From positions 310,001 through 374,000 of the forward strand of contig CP084614.1 of the NCBI GenBank assembly GCA_025917655.1: a DNA stretch of 64,000 nucleotides. The letters run 5' to 3'. The position numbers and the translations under genes were made by a program. The DNA comes from Chlorella sorokiniana. Lineage: Eukaryota > Chlorophyta > Trebouxiophyceae > Chlorellales > Chlorellaceae. The number at the start of each line of letters is the position of its first letter. Positions within the stretch are counted from its first letter, which is position 1. Shown here one piece after another: positions 4,811 through 33,097 of the stretch. The notes beneath the pieces are model-generated. The model searched no databases. It saw only the letters and a list, made by a program, of their open reading frames with translations, and had not been told where the DNA came from.

Positions 4811-5249
4811 GGGCCTGCCGCGCGGCCTGCTCTTGTGGCCCGCTGCAACAGGCCACGAGGCAGGGCTGTGGAGCTGGCTGTGCTGCAAAGCTGTAGCTAG
4901 GAGCAGCTGGTGAGTTGGTTTGCTGCAACCTCTGGCCGAGCCCGTCAGGGTGCTTAGACGCTGCCTGCTGCTTGCATGCCAGCCTCAGTGGCCTGCTGAG
5001 CGCATGCCCAGGCTGCGAGCGGGCCGCGAGCGCTCGATCCAGCCTCTGAAACGAGGCGTCCGCGTCGGTCCCTCGCTTTGGCTGGTGCTTGCTGAAGATC
5101 CGATGCTCGCCAGCTTTGCCACAGCTAGAGAGCGGGGCTGGGGGCACGAGCATGTGCCCAGTCCAGCTTTCCACCTGGCATGTAACACGGCTTCTCAGGC
5201 ATAGACGCCGCCTGCAGCCTCCTCCGCCCTCGTTTTACGCACCCGGAGT

Positions 5250-5257
5250 TATTTAAA
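5250..5257 (+). promoter_or_regulatory. TATA-like box TATTTAAA
   Basis: An AT-rich octamer stands out in the GC-rich 620-base gap between two divergent genes (starts at 4810 minus and 5431 plus). It lies 174 bases before the plus-strand ATG, so it fits a promoter with a 5' UTR of about 140 bases. Assignment to the plus-strand gene is inference. Confidence 0.3.
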
Positions 5258-5430
5258 GTCGTTGAAAAGCACGGATTGTCGCTTGGCGGCGCGCACGCAC
5301 AACGCGCGTTTTGCCCGCAGCTCGTGACTGCCACGACTAGGTTACCCTGTCGGGCCCTGCAGTCCTACTAGTGCCCCAGGCTTTCATTGCGACCTGCAGC
5401 GGGGCTCACCAGCCATCCAGGAGGCAGCCA

Positions 5431-21557: not shown

Positions 21558-22892
21558 ATGCGAAGCAGACTTTCCGCCAGCCTTTTGCTGGCGGTGGGGC
21601 TCCTGCTCCTGGCCTCAGGTGCGTCGCCAGACGTGGCACTGACGGGCCTGGCCAGGACGCTCCCTGGCGGTGCCAGCGGCAGGCTCCTGCAAGCTATGCA
21701 GGTTGCCCTGGCCGGTCCCAAACCCACAGCTGGGCACCCAGCTCAGCATGTTGCATGCTTGTCTGCCCAACCTGCTGCCAAAGCCCACACTTCCCTGCCG
21801 GCCGCGCCCTTGCCCCCTCCATCTCCTCCGCAGCCCCCGTGCGCGCCGACGACGGAGCTGCTGGCGGCGAGGAGTGCGACAAGTTTGCCCCCAGCATCTA
21901 CGATGCAATCGTCAAGGCCAAACTGACCTACCTGCAGCGTGCCGTGGACGTGAGTGACGCTCGAGGGGGAGGGGGAGTTGCGTCACCCCAGCTGCCGTGC
22001 CAGCTGCTCCTTGATGCCTGTGCGGGGGGAGAATGGGGGAGGAGGGAAGGGGGGGGGGCGGGGGGCACACCAGCTGCCGTGCCAGCTGCTGCATGATGCC
22101 TGTGCGGCCAGGCTGGTGCTGCTGATGATGTCTGTTGCCAGGGTTCCGAGATGAGTTGTCTCTGACCCCCGCCCGCTGCAGGCTGCTGGGCTGACCGAGG
22201 TCCTGTCCAACTCCACCCTGCAAGCCACCCTGCTGGCGCCCAGCAGTGAGTCCCCCCCCACCCACACACACATCCCCACCCTCACCCCGTCCAAAGCTGC
22301 AGCTAGCTGAGCAAGCGGAAATGCAGTGCTGTGCCATACCCATACCCAGCGTACCCACCCGGTACCCAACTTCCATGCAAGCAACCCAACTGCGAGGCAA
22401 CTGTCTCCTTCAACGTGTGCTTCTGCACTCTGTCCTCATTCCCCCCCTCCCCCTTCCGCAGACAATGCTTTCCTTGACCTGTTCGATGACTGTGACGACG
22501 TGCTCAGCTTTGATGATGACGGCGAAGAGGAGAGACGCCGCAAGCTGCTGGACGACGATGACGGTGAGTAACCGCTGGGCTGCTGCGTCTTGCCCCGGCG
22601 GGGTGGATTGTGGCTTTGGCGGCATGCTTTGCTGCCCTCTTTGGTGGCCTGTGCGCCCATGCCTTGTGGGGAGGGGAGCTTGTGCGCAGTCTTCGCCGCC
22701 GCTGCCCCGCCCCCGCTGTCGCCTGCTGGCTCTCCCTTCCTACCTGTCACCTCTGGTTGTCTTTGGCTGCAGATGACGACGATGGTGCGCCGCGCCAGCG
22801 CTGCTGCCGAGACGCACAGATGCACAGGCAATGCAGCTGCCCATCACTTTTTCTTCCCCTTCTGTTCAATCGCTATCCTTCCATCTGTTGCA

Positions 22893-22929
<37 letters not shown>

Positions 22930-25240
22930 GTGAGCTGCCCATTGATGGGAAGCGGTGCCACCATTAACTGCTTCAAACAGCAGCATTGCTTCAGCGCCCA
23001 TTGATGGGAACTGGCGCTGACCTAACGAACCCCATGTATTGAGTGTGATTGCCTCCGCAGATGATGATGATGATGATGACGACAAGCCCCGCCCTGCGCC
23101 CTGCAATGCCGCCTGCCAGGCCAAGAAGCGCGCAGCCGAGCTGGCTCGCCGCCGCGCCATCATCTGCCAGCGCAACCCCAAGGCTGCCGGCTGCCCCAAG
23201 GCGCCCTCCAACCCGCCAAAGCGCGACGACGATGACGATGACGGTGCGCTGAAGCTGCTGCTGATATCTCACTGCTTCGTTGTTATGCTCTGCTGTTAGT
23301 GGCCTGCTGCGAGAAGGCTCTGTGGACACATCAACCATGCAATGCAGAACAGCGTTTGCCGTCTTCTGTCCCAGTTTCTGTGCTCACTGCAAGCTTCCGC
23401 TTTTTGCTCTGTGTGCAGACGATGATGATGATGATGATGGTGAGCTGCCCTTGCGGCCCGCATTGCTTTAAGCGGTGCCATCATTAACTGCTTCAACCAG
23501 CAGCATTGCTTCAGCGCCCATTGATGTGAACTCGCGCTGACCTAACGAACCCCATGTATTGAGTGTGATTGCCTCCGCAGATGATGATGATGATGATGAC
23601 GACAAGCCCCGCCCTGCGCCCTGCAATGCCGCCTGCCAGGCCAAGAAGCGCGCAGCCGAGCTGGCTCGCCGCCGCGCCATCATCTGCCAGCGCAACCCCA
23701 AGGCTGCCGGCTGCCCCAAGGCGCCCTCCAACCCGCCAAAGCGCGACGACGATGACGATGACGGTGAGACTGGCTGCCTCTCGCTTAAGATGCATTGTGT
23801 ATTGCTGCACTACCATGCCAAGTTGTAGCATTTGTTGATGCCGTGCAGGGAATGTGCCTTGCCTGCTTGCATTTTGCCCCATGTCCTTCCCTCTGGCCAC
23901 TGCTGCTGTTTGCCGCCCCCAGGTCGCTTGACTCTGATGCAATGCCAGCGGCTTACACGTCTCTCAAACTAATCGCAGATGATGATGACGATGATGATGA
24001 TGACGGCAAGCCCCGCCCCGCGCCCTGCAATGCCGCCTGCCAGGCCCGCAAGCGTGCTCAGGAGCTTGCCAAGAAGCGCGCGGAGGCTGCTAAGAAGCGC
24101 GCCGCCGCCCTGGCTGCCAAGAAGCGCGCGGAGGAGGCCGCCCGCAAGCGCGCCTTCTGCCGCCGCAACCCCGCGCCCGCCAGTGCCGCCGCGACGACGA
24201 CGACGACGACGACCGCCGCCGCCGCCTGCTCCAGGTTGGCGGCGACGACGACCGCTGCTTCAACACCCTGCTGAGCGACCGGGAGCTCCTGGCCAAGGTG
24301 AGCGTTCTGTCCTGACACCAAGCTTTGAGTGGGGGCATCCTCTCTGCCTGCTTGCATTTCGGCTATCACTTTCAACCCGCCACTGCTTGCTCAGTTGCAG
24401 CTGCCAGTGGCATGACACGCGCTGCCCCTGCCGTGTTTGAGGTGTCTGCCACAACCTGACCCCTATCAACTTTCTGTTTTTTTGTTTCTGTCTCTCCCAT
24501 CCTTCCAGATCCTTTCCTACCACGTGATCCCCGCCATTGAGCCCACCGCGGCCTGGCCCCGCACTGGCACCAGGGCTGTGGCGACCCTGTCTGGGGCCAC
24601 CCTCCAGGTCAGCACCAGCTGGCAGCATCCTTGCCAGGGGGTCCAGTCGCTTGTCCTTGGCATGCCGCATCTCTCCGGCAAGGCCCACCGGGGCCCAACC
24701 CTTCTTGCGTGCTCTCCCCAAGAGGCAACCTGGATTTAGCGTGCTGTTGGCAGCTGCCTGCTCTCCCATCATGCCTCCCCATGTTCCCTTCCCCTCCCCT
24801 CCTCACTCTCCTGCTCTGTCCCTCTCGTTTCCCTGCCCTCGGCATCAATGGAATCCGCAGCTCAAGATGGACGACCGCGGTGACCGCTTTGAGGACTTTG
24901 AGATTGAGACACCGGGTGATGATAATGACGACGACACTGAGATGGTGCTGGGCGACCTGGCAGCGGGCCAGGGCCTGGTGCACATCATTGACGAGGTGAG
25001 GTTACATGATATGAGGGGGCAGCCGGGGAAGCGGTGACTCCTGGGAATGTGGCTGTGTGTTTGTGCGAGGTGGGCTGAGTGGGGTGAGCTGTTGTTGCTG
25101 CAGCCTGCGCACAGCTGCAGGCGCATGCTGGCACAGGCGCATGCCCGGCAGTTGAACGCCCGTCGTGAGCTTCGCCTCGCTTGTTTGCTCACTGCTCCTG
25201 CAACCTCCCCATGATGCTTCAGGTGCTGATCCCAAACTGA
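21558..25240 (+). CDS. Fasciclin (FAS1) protein A with poly-Asp and Lys/Arg-rich insertion
   Basis: Signal peptide RLSASLLLAVGLLLLAS (exon 1, 21558-21618). FAS1 start in exons 21834-21949 and 22182-22245 (SIYDAIVKAKLTYLQRAVD, LTEVLSNSTLQATLLAPS), H1 motif NNAFLDLFDD in 22462-22563, then a long insertion before the H2 part ILSYHVIPAIEPTAAWP (24509-24607), the FEDFEIETPG exon (24861-24995) and HIIDEVLIPN ending at 25240. The insertion is made of phase-1 exons of 12, 36, 183, 21 and 183 bases (22773, 22894, 23061, 23419, 23581) plus 23979-24297. They encode pure Asp tracts or KPRPAPCNAACQAKKRAAEL-type basic, Cys-bearing segments flanked by Asp. FAS1 proteins mediate adhesion at the cell surface or wall; Asp tracts suggest cation binding (inference). 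A one-base slip near 24170 (AACCCC run) breaks the frame as written; the corrected frame reads RRRRLLQVGGDDDRCFNTLL. Confidence 0.82.
21985..22105. repeat. Intronic tandem repeat in FAS1 gene A
   Basis: The phrase cagctgccgtgccagctgct followed by a gatgcctgtgcgg-type segment appears twice (about 21989 and 22071), separated by a G-rich run. Both copies lie in the intron before the exon at 22182. Confidence 0.65.
22930..23763 (+). repeat. 520-base tandem duplication carrying a 183-base exon
   Basis: The exons at 23061-23243 and 23581-23763 are identical at the base level as far as I can read, and the intron before each is nearly identical back to about 22930 and 23440. The offset is exactly 520 bases. 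Because the exon is a multiple of three with phase-1 introns on both sides, duplication adds 61 codons without breaking the frame. Confidence 0.9.
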
Positions 25241-25491
25241 GCCTTGCGAGCCTGCTGTGGCTTGCTGCTGACGTAGCCTGAATTGGGCTGCCATCAAATC
25301 ATTTCAGCAAGGAGCTGTGAGAATGCCGCGCCTTAGCCTTCTGAAGGTTGTGAATGCCTTTGTCTTGATTTGTCCCACTATCCACATCCCTCGCCTTCCC
25401 CGCCTGCACTTTTGTCTGCCTTGACAACTGTAATATGCCGCCCTGCTGTTGAGTGCTGTCCTATCCATTCCATGTGCCACTAAGGAAAAGA

Positions 25492-25496
25492 TGTAA
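25492..25496 (+). terminator. Putative poly(A) signal TGTAA
   Basis: Chlorophyte-type signal about 250 bases after the stop of FAS1 gene A. Corresponding signals lie at 29628-29632 and 33384-33388 after genes B and C. Confidence 0.35.
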
Positions 25497-26477
25497 CAGC
25501 ATAGTCCAGCAGAGCAGCATGGTTTGCAGCAGCAAGCGCAGCGTTGCGGCAAGGTGTGCATGGCGGCTGAGGTGCACACGCAACAGGAGCAACTCAGGCA
25601 CCAGCTGAAATGATGTGATGCCAGGCCAAGAGAACCAGGTGTTGCCCCCTTCCCCGCGCGTTTCAGAGATGAGCTATGATAAGCTGCACTGCCACAGCCC
25701 GGAGGCACCGCCGCTGACGCGCTGTAGGTTGTTGTTGGAGGTATGGACAGGCATTGATAACACCGGTGGTATGAACGTTGGGGGTTGCACCACACCCCAA
25801 CAAAGTCCTGTTTCCTCAGCAGGTGCATGGCAGGGAAGCTGGAGCGCTGCACACTCGAGGAGGTGAAAGTGCGGCAGCACGAGAACATTTAGTGTTCAAT
25901 ATGCTTGCCACTGGCTGCAGCGGCCAGCATGCAGCCTGGCATCGGCTCCAACATCCCGTGGAGTTGTTTAACATGATCAGCTCTGTCAGGCAGTTGGCAG
26001 CTCAGCAGACGACGGGGGGATCGGCTGTACTACTGTGGGCAGGGCAGCAGGCTGTTGCCCAGCTCTCAGCAGCGGCAGAAACCGCCCAGATCGTGTCCAG
26101 GTGCCCATGGGTGCCTCATGACAGACTGGGGGAGGCTGCAGGCCTGCCTCGGCTACCGCAGGCGGCTACCGCAGGCGGCTACCGCTGCAGGCATGCGGGC
26201 CTGCATGCCTTGCTTGATGGAGGCAGGGCCAAGCCTTAAAATGACATTAGGCGCTGCTCCACAAACTCAACGGGGCAGGTGTGGGGTTAGTCGAGTCAAC
26301 AAAGGGTGTGTCCACCTTCAAAGATGCAGCGGACGGACTGCGCGTGATAGATGCCAGGATATTCAAAGGTTCTAGGGTTTGAAGCTGAGCCCACAGCTGC
26401 TCCACGAGCCGTAGCTGATAATGTTATCATGTTCATGAGAACACGGTAGTGCAACACGGTGTGTGCAACACGGGCTC

Positions 26478-26484
26478 TATAAAT
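26478..26484 (+). promoter_or_regulatory. TATA box TATAAAT of FAS1 gene B
   Basis: Lies 96 bases before the ATG in the sequence gggctctataaatcgcatg. The same box at the same distance is kept before gene C (30252-30258), so both copies retain a full promoter. Confidence 0.6.
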
Positions 26485-26573
26485 CGCATGATTGAGGTGT
26501 CCTCGCACACATCACTGTCCTTCATTGATCGTTCTCCATCCCTGGTCATCGCGCGATCCCCGACTGGCGCACT

Positions 26574-29340
26574 ATGCGCAGCAAAGTCTGTGCCAGCCTT
26601 GTGCTGGCGGCCGGGCTCCTGCTCCTGGCTTCTGGTGAGCACTTTGTGAGCATCGAAGTGCGCTGTGACGCCCGCTTCCAGCCTCAATGGCCAGCCGCGG
26701 GGTCATTGCCTCCGGCTGCCGCTGCCGGCTGCGGGCAGGTGCAACCGCCCTGTGCTGGTTGCGCCGAGTGCCAGGTCCCAAAGTCAGACTGGCAGACCAG
26801 CTTCTGGGCTTTCCCTGCACAGCAGCCACAACTGCCCCGCTATGTTTCCACAATGGAGGAAGGGGCTGGTCTCTTCCCCGTCTGCGGGCTGCTGTTTACC
26901 GCTGCAGTGCTGACGTTACTGCGCTGCTGAGCACCGTGGCAGTGCTAACCCCCCCCCTCCCCCGCAGCCCCGTGCGCGCCGATGACGGAGCTGCTGGCGG
27001 CGAGGAGTGTGACCAGTTTGCACCCAGCATCTACGACGCAATCGTGAAGGCCAAGCTGACCTATCTGCAGCGCGCCGTGGACGTGAGTGACGCACACAGG
27101 GGCTGGGCGGTGGTGCAGTGACAGGGGTGCAGTGAAGGTCCTGGCGGCTTACCGGCGCTTACCGGCGCCTTGCGCAGCTCCAAAAGGGCACTCATTGCAC
27201 AAGCTGACCAGCAGCGGCTATATGCAGCAACTACGTGGTTGCATGGCATGCCATGGTAGCTGCACCGCTGGCCCACTTGCGCGCTGCTGCACCAGACTCC
27301 CCTGCTAGGGTGCACCCAGCAACCACTGCTTAACCCCCTGCCTCGCTTTGCCTGCTTGTGCGCCTCCCACCTTGCAGGCTGCCGGGCTGACCGAGGTTCT
27401 GTCCAACTCCACCCTGGAAGCCACCCTGCTGGCGCCCAGCAGTGAGTGACCAGCCTCCATCCGGTCCCATGCACGCTTGTCGCATTGCCGAACATGCCAA
27501 AATTGCAGTTGCTCATGAGAGCACTGCCTCTTGCTCCCACCCAACTGCGTTCTCTGTCAGCAACTACGTCTCTCTTGCGTTTTCTTGCCCTGAACGCTTT
27601 GGATCGCCCCCTCTGCTCCCCACGCCTCTCCACAACAGCTGCCCCCTCCATCAACATTGCCCCCTCGCTGACGCACACCTGCCCTTGCCAACCGCAGACA
27701 GCGCTTTCCTGGAGCTGTTTGATGATGACTGCGACGGTGAGGATGATGATGATGATGATGATGATGGCGAGGAGGACAGTGTGCAGGGCCGTAAGCTGCT
27801 GGACGACGACGACGATGATGATGGTGAGGCTGCCTTATGCTGCTGGGCGTTGGTGATGCGGGGCCGAACAGCGGGCGGCTGCCTGGATTGCCACCTCCCT
27901 GGCGCGGGCGCTGTCTGGAGCAGCACGGCTAACTCCATGCCCCGTCCTCCCTGTGCTTTCCCACCTGCAGACGATGATGATGATGATGATGACGACGACG
28001 GTGCGCCCCTATGCCGCAAGGCCTGCCTGCATGTTGCAACAGCCACTCAGCCATGCCTGTTGGCCAGCCAACCTCTGATGCCTCCGCGCCCCACCCTCTC
28101 TGCAGACAAGGGATGCAACGCTGCCTGCCGCCGTAGGCGCCAGGCGGCCGCCGCAAGCGGGCCGCAGCTCGCCGTCGCGCCGCCCTCGCCCGCCAGCGCG
28201 CCCTCGCCCGTCGTCGCGCCGCCCTCGCCCGCAAGCGCGCCCTGGCCGCCCGCAGCGCGCCCAGGCGGCCGCCCGCAAGCGCGCCTTCTGCCGCCGCAAC
28301 CCCCGTGCCCGCCAGTGCCGCCGCCGCGCGACGACGACGACGACGACGACCGCCGCCGCCGCCTGCTCCAGGTTGGCGATGACGACAACAACAACTGCTT
28401 CAACAGCCTGCTGAGCAACAGGGAACTTCTGGCCGAGGTGAGAGCGTACCCCGACACCAAGCTTTGGGTTGGGGTAGTCTCTTTGCCTGCTCGCACTCCG
28501 GCTATCCACCATCCTGCCAGGGCACAGTTGCAGCTGTCCCTGCCGTGTTTTCGCTTTCTGCCACAACCTGACCCCTGTCAACCTCGTTCCTGGTCCCTCC
28601 CATCCTTCCAGATCCTTTCCTACCACGTGATCCCCGCCATTGAGCCCACCGCGGCCTGGCCCCGCAATGGCACCAGGGCTGTGGCGACACTGTCTGGGGC
28701 CACTCTCCAGGTCAGCACCAGCTGGCAGCAGCCTTGCCAGGGGGTCCAGTCGCTTGTCCTTGGCATGCCGCATCTCTCCAGCAAGGCATACCCGGTCACC
28801 CACCCTCCTTGCGTGCTCTCCCCAAGAGGCAACCTGGATTGAGCGCGCTTGCTGGCAGCCGCTGGCTCTTCCAACATCCCTCCCCACTTTCCCCTCCCCT
28901 CCCCTCCTCACCCTTCCGTTCCCTGCCCTCGGCATCAATGGAATCCGCAGCTCAAGATGGACGACCTGGATGACCGCGATGACGGCTTTGAGGACTTTGA
29001 GATTGAGACGCCGGGTGATGATGACGACGACGACGCCGAGATGGTGCTGGGCGACCTGGCAGCGGGCCAGGGCCTGGTGCACATCATTGACGAGGTGAGG
29101 TTATATGATATGAGGGGGGCAGCAGGGGAGCGGTGACTCCTGGGAATGTGGCTGTGTGTTTGTGTGAGGTGGGCTGAGTGGGGTGAGCTGTTGTTGCTGC
29201 AGCCTGCGCACACAGCTGCAGGCGCATGCTGACACTGGCGCATGCCCGGCAGATGAACGCCCGTTGTGAGCTTCGCCTTGCTTGTTTGCTCACTGCTCCT
29301 GCAACTCCCCATGGTACTTCAGGTGCTGATCCCGAACTGA
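26574..29340 (+). CDS. Fasciclin (FAS1) protein B with poly-Asp and Pro/Arg-rich insertion
   Basis: Nine exons: 26574-26634 (signal peptide KVCASLVLAAGLLLLAS), 26968-27082, 27378-27441, 27698-27823, 27971-28000, 28106-28437, 28612-28710, 28951-29094 and 29323-29340. FAS1 landmarks are SIYDAIVKAKLTYLQRAVD, NSAFLELFDDDCDG (H1), ILSYHVIPAIEP (H2) and HIIDEVLIPN. The insertion has two acidic exons (EDDDDDDDDGEED; a 30-base all-Asp exon) and exon 28106, which in the open frame begins GCNAACRRRRQAAAASGPQL, continues as Pro/Ala/Ser repeats such as PPSPASAPSP, and returns to DDDDDDDRRRRLLQVG. In gene C the equivalent exon favours a Lys/Arg/Ala frame instead. Exon 2 is one C short of genes A and C, so the frame is broken as written; probably an artefact. 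Likely a wall or surface protein. Confidence 0.8.
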
Positions 29341-30347
29341 GCCTTGCTGGTTTGGTTGCCGCGGCCGCTGCGCATCGAGTCCGCGGTTGTAGTCTGAACG
29401 TGCGCTGGCGCTTGGGCAAGACATCCAATCCCGCAATCACAGACCTTTATGATAATAATCAAGAAGAGTGCTTTGAATTCAATAAATTCAATAAGTGTGT
29501 GCCCTTCTTCCCGAAACGAGCAGTACTGCTTGAACTAGTCATGAAGCAACCCCCAACACCACTTCACCTCCGAACACTGCCCCTTTTGTGCGCCCCTGAT
29601 TAGAAGATTTCTGATTATTGATGCTGATGTAACCCTCCGACTAGTCAAGACAAAAGGCTCATGGGGAAGCCTCAAGGATTGGCTGTACTACTGTGGACAG
29701 GGCAGTAGGCTGTTGCCCAGCTATCAGCAGCGGCAGAAACCGCCCAGATCGTGTCCAGGTGCCCATGGGTGTCTCATGACAGGCGGGAGGCTGCATGTGA
29801 CAGCACGGCATTTCTGCCCTCCAGAACCTACATCAAGTGTAAGACATCAACAGTAGCCAAGCCGGAGGCACAGCCTCAGGCCTTGTCCCTGCCTGTGGCT
29901 GTGCTGCTAGACCGCTGCTGTTGCACTGCAGGCCTGCCTCGACTACCGCAGGCGGCTACCGCTGCAGGCATGCAGGCCTGCATGCCTTGCTTGATGGAGG
30001 CAGGGCCAAGCCTGAGAATCACATCAGGCGCTGCTCCACAAACTCAACGGGGCAGGTGTGGGGTTAGTTGAGTCAACAAAGGGTGTGTCCACCTTCAAAG
30101 ATGCAGCGGACGGACTGGCGTGATAGATGCCAGGATATTCAAATGTTCTAGGGGAAGCTACAGCCCACAGGTGCTCCACGAGCCGTAGCCGATAATGTTA
30201 TCATGTTCATGAGAACACGGTGGTGCAACACGGTGTGTGCAACACGGGCTCTATAAATCGCATGATTGAGGTGTCCTCGCACACATCACTATCCTTCATT
30301 GATCGTTCTCCATTCCTGGTCATCGCGCGATCTCCGACTGGCGCACT
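29341..30347. other. Spacer between FAS1 genes B and C
   Basis: The 3' flank of gene B, with TGTAA at 29628-29632, is AT-richer than the genes. From about 29676 it becomes the duplicated promoter region of gene C. No separate gene seen. Confidence 0.5.
30252..30258 (+). promoter_or_regulatory. TATA box TATAAAT of FAS1 gene C
   Basis: Placed 96 bases before the ATG in the same context as in gene B. Confidence 0.6.
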
Positions 30348-33097
30348 ATGCGCAGCAAAGTCTGTGCCAGCCTTGTGCTGGCTGCCGGGCTCCTTCTCCT
30401 GGCTTCTGGTGAGCACTTTGTGAGCATTGGGGTGCGGTGCGACGTCCGCTTCCAGCCTCAATTGCCAGCCGTGGGGGCCTTGCCGACGGCTGACGGCGGC
30501 AGGTGCAACCCATCCGGTGCCGGTTGTGCCGAGTGTCAGGTCCCCCTATCAGACTGACTGGCAGTCCAGCTTCCGGCCTTCCCCTGCACAGCAGCCAAAA
30601 CTGCCCCCGCTATGCTTCCACGGGAAGGGGCTGATCTCTTCCCCGTCAGCGGGCTGCTGCTCACCGCTGAAGGAATGGCTGCCGTTGCTGCGCTGCTGAC
30701 CAACTCCCACCCCACCCGCCCGCAGCCCCTGTGCGCGCCGATGACGGCGAGGAGTGCGACAAGTTTGCACCCAGCATCTACGACGCAATCGTGAAGGCCA
30801 AGCTGACCTATCTGCAGCGCGCCGTGGACGTGAGTGACGCACACAGGGGCTGGGCGGTGGTGCAGTGACAGGGGTGCAGTGAAGGTCCTGGCGGCTTACC
30901 GGCGCAGCTTCACAAGGGCACTCATTGCACAAGCTGAGCAGCAGCGGCTGTACACATCAACTACGTGGTTGCATGGCATGCCATGGCAGCTGCACCGCAG
31001 GGCCACCTGCGCTCTGCACCAGACTCCCCTGTTGGGCTGCACCCAGCAACCACCCGCCTACCCTCCTGCCTTGCTTTGTCTGCTTGTGCGTCTCCCGCTT
31101 TGCAGGCTGCTGGGCTGACCGAGGTTCTGTCCAACTCCACCCTGGAGGCCACCCTGCTGGCGCCCAGCAGTGAGTGACCAGCCGCCATCCGGTCCCCTTG
31201 CACCCTTGTTGCATTGCAGATGTCACAATTGCAACTGCTCATGGGAGCACTGCCTCCTGCCCCCACCCAACTCCGGTCTCTGTCAGCAACTACGTCTCTC
31301 TTGCGTTTTCTTGCCCTGAACGCTTTGGATCGCCCCCTCTCCTCCCCACGCCTCTCCACAACAGCTGCCCCCTCCATCAACATTGCCCCCTCGCTGACGC
31401 ACACCTGCCCTTGCCAACCGCAGACAGCGCTTTCCTGGAGCTGTTTGATGATGACTGCGACGGTGAGGATGATGATGACGATGATGATGATGGCGAGGAG
31501 GACGGTGTGCAGGGCCGCAAGCTGCTGGACGACGACGACGATGATGATGGTGAGGCTGCCTTATGCTCCTGGGCGTTGGTGATGCGGGGCCGAACAGCGG
31601 GCGGCTGCCTGGATTGCCACCTCCCTGGCGCGGGCGCTGTCTGGAGCAGCACGGCTAACTCCATGCCCCGTCTTCCCTGTGCTTTCCCACCTGCAGACGA
31701 TGATGATGATGATGACGATGACGGTGCGCCCCTATGATGCTGCAAGGCCTGCCTGCATTTTGCGAATTTTGGGTTATTCTGCAACAACTGCTCGGCCATG
31801 CCTGTTGGCCAGCCAACCCCTGATGCCTCTGCGCCCCGCCTTTCTGCAGACAAGGGTTGCAACGCTGCCTGCCGCCGTAGGCGCCAGGCGGCCGCCGCAA
31901 GCGGGCCGCAGCTCGCCGTCGCGCCGCCCTCGCCCGCAAGCGCGCCCTCGCCCGTCGTCGCGCCGCCCTCGCCCGCAAGCGCGCCCTGGCCGCCCGCAAG
32001 CGCGCCCAGGCGGCCGCCCGCAAGCGCGCTCTCTGCCGCCGGAACCCCGGCGCCCGCCAGTGCCGCCGCCGCGACGACGACGACGACGACAATGAGGAGG
32101 ACCGCCGCCGCCGCCTGCTCCAGGTTGGCGAAGACAACTGCTTCAACAGCCTGCTGAGCAACAGGGAACTTCTGGCCGAGGTGAGATTTTTGCACCGACA
32201 CCAAGCTTTGGGTGGGGGTAATCTCTTTGCCTGCTTGCATTTCGGCTGTCCATCATCCTGCCAGTGCACAGTTGCAGCTGCCCCTGCCGTGTTTTCGCTT
32301 TCTGCCACGACCTGACCCCTGTCAACCTCGTTCCTGGTCCCTCCCATCCTTCCAGATCCTTTCCTACCACGTGATCCCCGCCATTGAGCCCACTGCGGCC
32401 TGGCCCCGCAATGGCACCAGGGCTGTGGCGACCCTGTCTGGGGCCACCCTCCAGGTCAGCGCCAGCTGGCAGCAGCCTTCCCAGGGGGTCCAGTCGCTTG
32501 TCCTTGGCGTGCTGCATCTCTCCGGCAAGGCCCACCGGGTCCCCCACCCTCCTTGTGTGCTGTCCACAAGAGGCAACCTGGATTCAGCGCGCTGTTGGCA
32601 GCCGCCTGCTCTCCCATCATGCCTCCCCATGTTCCCTTCCCCTCCCCTCCTCACTCTCCCGCTCTGTCCCTCTCGTTCCCCTGCCCTCAACATCAATGGA
32701 ATCCGCAGCTCAAGATGGACGACCTGGATGACCGCGATGACGGCTTTGAGGACTTTGAGATTGAGACGCTGGGTGATGATGATGACGACGACGCCGAGAT
32801 GGTGCTGGGCGACCTGGCAGCGGGCCAGGGCCTGGTGCACATCATTGACGAGGTGAGGTTGTATGATATGAGGGGGGCAGCCGGGGAGCGGTGACTCCTG
32901 GGAATGTGGCTGTGTGTTTGTGTGAGGTGGGCTGAGTGGGGTGAGCCGCTGTTGCTGCAGCCTGCGCACAGCTGCAGGCGCATGCTGACACTGGCGCATG
33001 CCCGGCAGTTGAACGCCCGTCGTGAGCTTTGCCTCGCTTGTTTGCTCACTGCTCCTGCAACCTCCCCACGGTGCTTCAGGTGCTGATCCCGAACTGA
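30348..33097 (+). CDS. Fasciclin (FAS1) protein C with poly-Asp and Lys/Arg-rich insertion
   Basis: Nine exons matching gene B: 30348-30408, 30726-30829, 31106-31169, 31424-31549, 31697-31723, 31850-32180, 32356-32454, 32709-32852 and 33080-33097. The signal peptide is KVCASLVLAAGLLLLAS. Exon 2 joins in frame (APVRADDGEECDKFAPS), unlike gene B. Acidic exons encode EDDDDDDDDGEED and nine Asp. In exon 31850 one frame reads ARKRALAARKRAQAAARKRA then LCRRNPGARQCRRRDDDDDD, clearly homologous to the basic helix of gene A. Reaching it needs one base restored near 31900 (GCCGCC run); as written, the frame becomes Ser/Pro-rich and stops near 32155. The FAS1 H2 half (ILSYHVIPAIEP, FEDFEIETLG, HIIDEVLIPN) is intact. 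Confidence 0.8.

Follow-up and report, generated by a model that had tools for sequence, protein, structure and literature searches.

Tandem FAS1 genes of Chlorella sorokiniana in which exon-coded blocks of opposite charge part the two halves of the fold and may form an electrostatic arm

We analysed a 64,000-nucleotide stretch of the Chlorella sorokiniana genome (the window; GCA_025917655.1, contig CP084614.1, positions 310,001 to 374,000 of the forward strand), which is C6:310001-374000 of the 38.8 Mb, 15-contig assembly that we searched genome-wide, and found three neighbouring genes with one FAS1 domain each, its two halves separated by an insert of alternating acidic and basic blocks. GC content in the window is 0.60-0.72 in 2-kb steps, and the introns and gene style fit a green alga. 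A preliminary description of this DNA had placed a tandem FAS1 family at 21558..33097; the family stands and both limits are exact, gene 1 having its ATG at 21558 and the gene 3 stop codon ending on 33097. The exons of all three genes come from splice-site models, built by seeking homologous GT and CAG sites, and such sites lie at each modelled junction (Table 1). Exon order is the same in every gene, with a signal-like exon 1, the N-terminal half of FAS1 in exons 2-4, the insert exons, the ILSYHVIP sequence, an acidic exon and a last exon ending in VLIPN-stop. The proposal that the proteins are secreted gains a hydrophobic, signal-like N-terminal sequence in each gene, recognised by eye; the first exon of genes 2 and 3 reads MRSKVCASLVLAAGLLLLAS. 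Under the models, the shared VLIPN-stop leaves the C-termini of genes 1-3 with no hydrophobic tail and no glycosylphosphatidylinositol (GPI) anchor signal.

Both halves of FAS1 are present and in order. Pfam scans took in genes 1 and 3, and the gene 3 halves scanned apart each exceeded the 22-bit cut-off of PF02469 (Fasciclin; N-terminal half 24.2 bits, E 4.3e-5; C-terminal half 43.5 bits, E 4.5e-11). The full gene 3 reading, with the insert and an X at the frame break, matched Fasciclin in two stretches (6.5e-17), and the cores freed of the insert scored 70.9 bits (1.4e-19) for gene 3 and 68.3 bits (9e-19) for gene 1. All remaining matches were below cut-off and of a low-complexity type (DNA_pol_phi 0.0012, Nop53 0.02, ANAPC15 0.04, others weaker). 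The motifs H1 (APSNxAF), YH (ILSYHVIP) and H2 (HIIDEVLIPN) keep their order in genes 1-3, and in all three an insertion parts the FAS1 start from ILSYHVIP and HIIDEVLIPN, as had been described.

The distance from H1 to YH is about 169 residues in gene 3 and about 293 in gene 1, compared with 25-48 (median 31) in 69 prokaryotic FAS1 loci, so the insert-bearing genes lack a contiguous, compact FAS1 domain. For this survey, 335 relatives were confirmed on prokaryotic contigs and the best 80 kept, of which 11 were dropped when the motif search did not find both ends; it leans towards short spacings, with the shortest taken per locus and loci chosen by similarity to the insert-free core, and may under-count long inserts. 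None of the 69 measured loci has a run of five or more acidic residues between H1 and YH, and on viral contigs 78 stretches fit the search pattern with none confirmed. The idea of a single FAS1 fold interrupted by charge blocks was thus upheld by the Pfam halves, their order and the spacing. The insertion falls in a loop that already differs in length among other FAS1 proteins (25-48 residues), and because of this the fold need not be disrupted. A family search of the genome found four other FAS1 places over cut-off, two on contig C4, one on C2 and one on C3, none with a charged insert: the C4 pair and the C2 match run directly from H1 to YH, and the C3 match has an intron there.

The insert is built from exon cassettes. 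Asp runs had been put at 7-12 residues; runs are indeed there, but once spliced they reach 28, 21 and 15 residues in gene 1, and the longest are 18 in gene 2 and 17 in gene 3. The basic module quoted earlier, KPRPAPCNAACQAKKRAAEL, holds for gene 1 (exons 7 and 9, with a variant in exon 10) and not for genes 2 and 3, which have a different basic sequence whose frame opens only past a one-base break; the modules of gene 1 exon 10 and gene 3 exon 6 are readable only with a frame change at the break. The module ends are kept, CNAAC on one side and C(R/Q)RNPxxxxC on the other, giving a CX3C...CX8C pattern that flanks a basic stretch of variable length. Single-sequence AlphaFold, a weak model here, placed a helix at residues 16-37 of a 60-residue exon 7 piece (mean predicted local distance difference test score, pLDDT, 68) and at residues 4-54 of a 100-residue gene 3 piece (pLDDT 86-93 over residues 11-60).

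Acidic tracts of this kind are concentrated at the locus. Seven consecutive GAY codons occur 29 times in the window (overlaps counted), always within genes 1-3, and in none of 100 shuffles; genome-wide, 29 of 69 matches lie at the locus, which by eye holds, in 11.5 kb, 13 of the 27 distinct tracts of seven or more. The reversed-pattern control for these tracts (1054 + 989 matches) reads as CAG/TAG repeats and was of little use, and counts inside and outside the genes were used instead. A splice acceptor with a phase-1 Asp run immediately behind it occurs eight times in the genome, seven of them here, with 11 matches genome-wide for the reversed control pattern. A genome search with the basic module returned 12 matches, four in gene 1 and eight elsewhere at E of 0.09 or worse, which we took as chance.

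Table 1. Genes, exons and other features (positions in the window unless a contig is named)
Feature	Position	Strand	Description	Basis
Gene 1	21558..25240	+	13 inferred exons, ATG to stop; single one-base frame break, exon 10	splice-site model, exon frames
Gene 1 exons 2-3	21834..22245	+	FAS1 N-terminal half up to H1 (TLLAPS)	models, frames, Pfam
Gene 1 exon 4	22462..22563	+	end of H1 (NNAFLDLF) running into acidic block	exon frames
Gene 1 exon 5	22773..22784	+	Asp microexon of 12 bases, phase 1-1; least secure exon call	splice-site model
Gene 1 exon 6	22894..22929	+	12-codon Asp exon, phase 1-1	splice-site model, acceptor + Asp pattern
Gene 1 exon 7	23061..23243	+	cassette Asp8 - basic Cys module - Asp6	models, frames, structure prediction
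Gene 1 exon 8	23419..23439	+	Asp exon, phase 1-1	splice-site model, acceptor + Asp pattern
Gene 1 exon 9	23581..23763	+	copy of exon 7, 183/183 bases identical	pairwise comparison
Gene 1 exon 10	23979..24297	+	Asp9 - long basic module - (frame break) - Asp7 - start of YH-side helix	
Gene 1 exons 11-13	24509..25240	+	FAS1 C-terminal half (ILSYHVIP ... HIIDEVLIPN stop) and a second, short acidic stretch	
Gene 2	26574..29340	+	9 inferred exons; exon 2 has a one-base frame break and exon 6 has breaks that compensate	splice-site model, exon frames, pairwise comparison
Gene 2 exon 4	27698..27823	+	end of H1 and acidic block	exon frames
Gene 2 exon 5	27971..28000	+	Asp exon, length divisible by 3; phase 1-1 judged from gene 3	
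Gene 2 exon 6	28106..28437	+	CNAAC start, basic/Pro-Ser frames, Asp7, YH-side helix	
Gene 3	30348..33097	+	9 inferred exons; exon 6 has a one-base frame break, also found in gene 2	splice-site model, exon frames, pairwise comparison
Gene 3 exon 4	31424..31549	+	end of H1 and acidic block	exon frames
Gene 3 exon 5	31697..31723	+	Asp exon, phase 1-1	splice-site model, acceptor + Asp pattern
Gene 3 exon 6	31850..32180	+	CNAAC start, basic helix (frame after break), Asp6, YH-side helix	
Gene 3 exons 7-9	32356..33097	+	FAS1 C-terminal half	Pfam E 4.5e-11, scanned with end of exon 6
TATAAA	26478..26483	+	candidate promoter element, 96 bases 5' of gene 2 ATG	
TATAAA	30252..30257	+	candidate promoter element, 96 bases 5' of gene 3 ATG	
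One-base loss in histone copies otherwise intact (H4, H3)	C11:1579633-1579934 and C11:1516708-1517070			

All insert exons but the last begin and end in phase 1 (for gene 2, as deduced from exon length), and therefore any of them can be added or skipped with the frame unchanged. Survival of the frame on skipping, together with the high score of the insert-free gene 3 core, would also suit a mature protein with an ordinary FAS1 domain, the Asp and basic stretches being either repeats within introns or exons that are skipped. We consider this quite unlikely: every separate Asp exon has CAG directly before it and GTGAG or GTGCG directly after it, always in the same phase, and the last basic exon also holds FAS1 helix residues, so that it is not wholly skippable. 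Beside these exons, gene 1 has at 22926-23763 a recent intragenic copy of an exon-intron-exon unit (exons 6-7 and exons 8-9).

Differences between the copies carry the signature of coding constraint. Over exons 1-5 and 7-9, 16 sites separate genes 2 and 3, of which 2, 1 and 13 fall at codon positions 1, 2 and 3 (p 1e-4), and for genes 1 and 3, 19 of 27 differences in exons 1, 2, 3, 11 and 13 pooled fall at position 3 (p 9e-5). The pooled test omits exons 4, 10 and 12; exon 4 gives 6, 6 and 12 differences at positions 1, 2 and 3, and adding exons 4 and 12 by hand brings the figure to 33 of 58. Between the same two genes, exons 1-3 are 79-95% identical and exon 4 76.5%, with introns 1-4 at only 43-51%. 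Gene 1 exons 7 and 9 match at every one of 183 bases, whereas their preceding introns show 11 differences in 131 aligned bases (p 5e-5); either selection or local gene conversion could lie behind the exon identity. Chance or a microsatellite alone was rejected on the frame, splice and codon-position evidence and the shuffles.

The 3' part of gene 1 (24298-25240) resembles the end of gene 3 (32181-33097) even in its introns, introns 10-12 being 82-93% identical. Because these are far closer to gene 3 than introns 1-4 are, gene 1 may be a mosaic produced by recent gene conversion or unequal crossing-over.

Frame breaks interrupt all three genes in this assembly, and one, in exon 6, is common to genes 2 and 3; gene 2 is further broken in exon 2, and its breaks within exon 6 offset one another. 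As a yardstick, we looked at histone genes of the same assembly and found that one of eight H4 copies and one of six single-exon H3 copies have lost a base in a short run of G/C; the count leaves out nine of 15 H3 rows, which were partial, unresolved or interrupted by introns, with a stop in one, and one of 10 H4 rows (42% identity, 55 residues). These losses suggest that some assembly errors remain in short runs of G/C and, because similar breaks affect two of 14 histone copies, assembly error is the likelier, if unproved, source of the breaks in genes 1-3 as compared with real decay. A decaying array of pseudogenes with expanding microsatellites would account for the breaks and for the GAT-rich tracts (77 GAT and 45 GAC codons in the counted Asp runs, against 13 and 38 in the counted FAS1 exons). 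It is nonetheless an improbable account, given the third-position excess between copies, the homologous GT and CAG sites at all junctions (in models built by seeking them), the histone losses, and exon 6 of genes 2 and 3, where none of 12 differences falls at the second position of the basic frame (converted counts, some beside gaps).

The most likely explanation, which we hold at a little under even confidence as a whole, is that the three genes are tandem duplicates encoding secreted, single-domain FAS1 proteins with a cassette-grown electrostatic linker arm, probably acting in the cell wall. The loop between the H1 and YH helices would have lengthened as in-frame phase 1-1 exon cassettes were added and copied, probably helped by GAT slippage, until it formed an arm in which Asp tracts alternate with basic helices bracketed by Cys. 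The FAS1 halves would fold together and the insert project from the surface, its Asp tracts partly neutralising the basic helices within or between molecules. Such an arm could serve as a multivalent linker, sensitive to salt and pH, that anchors the protein in the wall or joins charged wall polymers and sister proteins, and the number of cassettes would set its length and charge. Our confidence is moderate for the anatomy, FAS1 with a charged arm, and low for the function in the wall.

The preliminary description proposed secreted, wall- or surface-bound proteins that would bind cations such as calcium or self-associate through their opposite charges. In a cation-binding role the protein would be a calcium or metal buffer, or a mineral-interacting protein, whose Asp tracts would bind Ca2+ and whose basic blocks would bind anions or the wall. 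The 17-28 consecutive Asp residues of the spliced products suit this idea, but near-equal numbers of basic residues would compete (13 K+R against 14 D+E in the exon 7 module, pI, the isoelectric point, 5.3) and Pfam returned no calcium or mineral family, only sub-cut-off low-complexity matches besides Fasciclin; we regard it as rather unlikely. Antimicrobial peptide precursors can follow a plan of cationic peptides with acidic spacers, and the 47-residue module (pI 11.3, four Cys, a KR end beside Asp tracts, two identical copies in gene 1) could similarly be a hidden cationic peptide released at dibasic sites. Release would split the FAS1 fold in two, however, and we regard this putative precursor as very unlikely.

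A carotenoid-binding role is suggested by the nearest solved structures, AstaP-pink1 (9e-17) and AstaP-orange1 (1.2e-8; PDB 9wm8, 22iy, 8c18), from Scenedesmaceae. AstaPs are described as stress-induced, astaxanthin-binding FAS1 proteins with signal peptides (PMC7477208, PMC10147662; articles are cited here by PubMed Central (PMC) identifier, from excerpts of their text). By this account, the FAS1 tunnel would hold a xanthophyll and the charged arm would keep the complex soluble under photooxidative stress. Like these green-algal proteins, the genes at the locus pair a signal peptide (by eye) with one FAS1 domain and no other Pfam domain; identity over the FAS1 core is 35-37% to pink1, 30-31% to orange1 and 32-35% to two paralogues of the same genome (pairwise values). 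An acidic stretch before H2 is shared with AstaP-pink1, and the AstaP-pinks are reported to be acidic, with a C-terminus about 30 residues shorter than that of AstaP-orange1 (PMC7477208). Of the 17 tunnel-contact positions named in the excerpted PMC10147662, 14 could be mapped, and 12 of these are hydrophobic in the charged-insert genes counting Ala, or 10 without it. Two C. sorokiniana transcripts have been named astaxanthin-binding fasciclins (PMC5915390), a Chlamydomonas Fasciclin-like FAS2 appears in the list of a singlet-oxygen study (PMC4067076), and both FAS2 and FAS3 are raised in a mutant rich in lutein (PMC10625216).

The controls pull the other way. In the numbering of PMC10147662, Trp79 of AstaP is Ala in the charged-insert genes, Gln56 is Lys, position 111 is Ala and position 138 is Thr, with none of the four AstaP residues kept; AstaP-pink1 itself has Leu at 138. 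The differences at 79 and 56 weigh little, because the W79F and Q56T variants of AstaP-orange1 still bind according to the same source, and only 111 and 138 count for much. When two paralogues, one on C4 and the C3 gene, were compared with solved structures, AstaP was the first match for both, and the C3 paralogue is closer to pink1 (47% identity) than the charged-insert genes are. The aligned part of the AstaPs, moreover, lacks a charge-block insert. Related genes of Chlorella variabilis and Chlamydomonas are induced by photooxidative stress, yet no aqueous carotenoprotein was reported to be detected in those strains (PMC8234090). Membership of the AstaPs, attractive from the structure match, was weakened by the paralogue controls and the residue mapping, and we have not filed the genes there. 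The charged-insert proteins may work like an AstaP, but we judge carotenoid binding unlikely to be their role. The locus also adds a case near the AstaP carotenoproteins that bears on how widely FAS1 proteins bind carotenoids.

Several observations count against a secreted wall protein with an electrostatic arm. As assembled, no gene is open from ATG to stop under the models; the exons, especially the 12-base exon, are themselves inferred from sequence; and gene 1 exon 12 and gene 3 exon 8 differ at 3, 2 and 2 sites over the codon positions, with no third-position excess. The genome family search missed genes 1-3 themselves, which makes the census incomplete, and other exon-split FAS1 genes may have been overlooked. 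Structure predictions cover pieces of the spliced proteins, the wall chemistry of the host is assumed, and the binding, pairing and location of the arm proteins are extrapolated from their coding sequence. AstaP-pinks, in addition, have been suggested to reside in the endoplasmic reticulum or vacuole rather than at the surface (PMC8234090).

Known systems share parts of this architecture. FAS1 proteins commonly work at the cell surface (PMC6032426), and fasciclin-like arabinogalactan proteins and Volvox algal-CAM are green-lineage FAS1 proteins that are secreted or lie at the surface (PMC6032426); these have Pro/Ala/Ser/Thr-rich regions, some with two FAS1 domains or GPI anchors, whereas the genes here have one FAS1 domain, no C-terminal anchor and a charged insert in the fold. 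A Pro/Ala/Ser/Thr-rich region is absent from the basic frame. In its assembled form, exon 6 of gene 2 reads throughout in one open frame, its net frame, containing PPSPASAPSP, a wall-protein-like sequence in place of the basic helix. ER/K single helices and acidic biomineral proteins likewise contain a charged low-complexity helix or an acidic tract; in contrast, the genes at the locus segregate Asp-only and basic blocks, and do so inside a FAS1 fold. Among the entries listed by literature searches of the open PMC library, none described a FAS1 domain split by alternating Asp and basic blocks. The charged insert is an unusual variant of a common adhesion fold, with acidic and basic blocks alternating in a long arm held at one loop.

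FAS1 is an ancient and widespread adhesion fold. An insert several times the usual loop length, built of segregated charge blocks on symmetric exons, would show a folded domain acquiring a tunable, disordered arm, and it offers a testable design for electrostatic wall binding. A broader and more doubtful proposal is that FAS1 frames a polyampholyte arm coded by exons, in which every in-frame cassette adds one acid-tract/basic-helix unit, with duplication or alternative splicing tuning length and charge to give self-pairing electrostatic wall linkers of a kind not met in the literature searched.

Two adjacent genes on C4, at ~1.3196-1.3213 and ~1.3218-1.3240 Mb (about 4150-8500 in C4:1315500-1325400), apparently combine LysM with FAS1, linked by nearness only; Pfam gave LysM at 1.3e-9, 9.9e-14 and 3.8e-12, and FAS1 at 1.6e-22 for the first gene. 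They share FAS1 with the locus and differ in their contiguous H1 to YH, their lack of an insert and the LysM exons alongside. LysM binds glycans, and LysM exons adjoining FAS1 exons are consistent with FAS1 proteins acting at a glucosamine-type wall. Glucosamine is discussed as a rigid-wall constituent in some Chlorella (PMC5908957). Beside the C3 FAS1 gene, a LysM-like stretch on the minus strand (C3:4195500-4204500, about 5183-5258) scored 14.8 bits, against a Pfam cut-off of 20.9.

Upstream of the genes, no TATAAA occurs between 21000 and the ATG of gene 1. Both of the TATAAA sequences before genes 2 and 3 sit in an upstream stretch that is 97% identical between the two.

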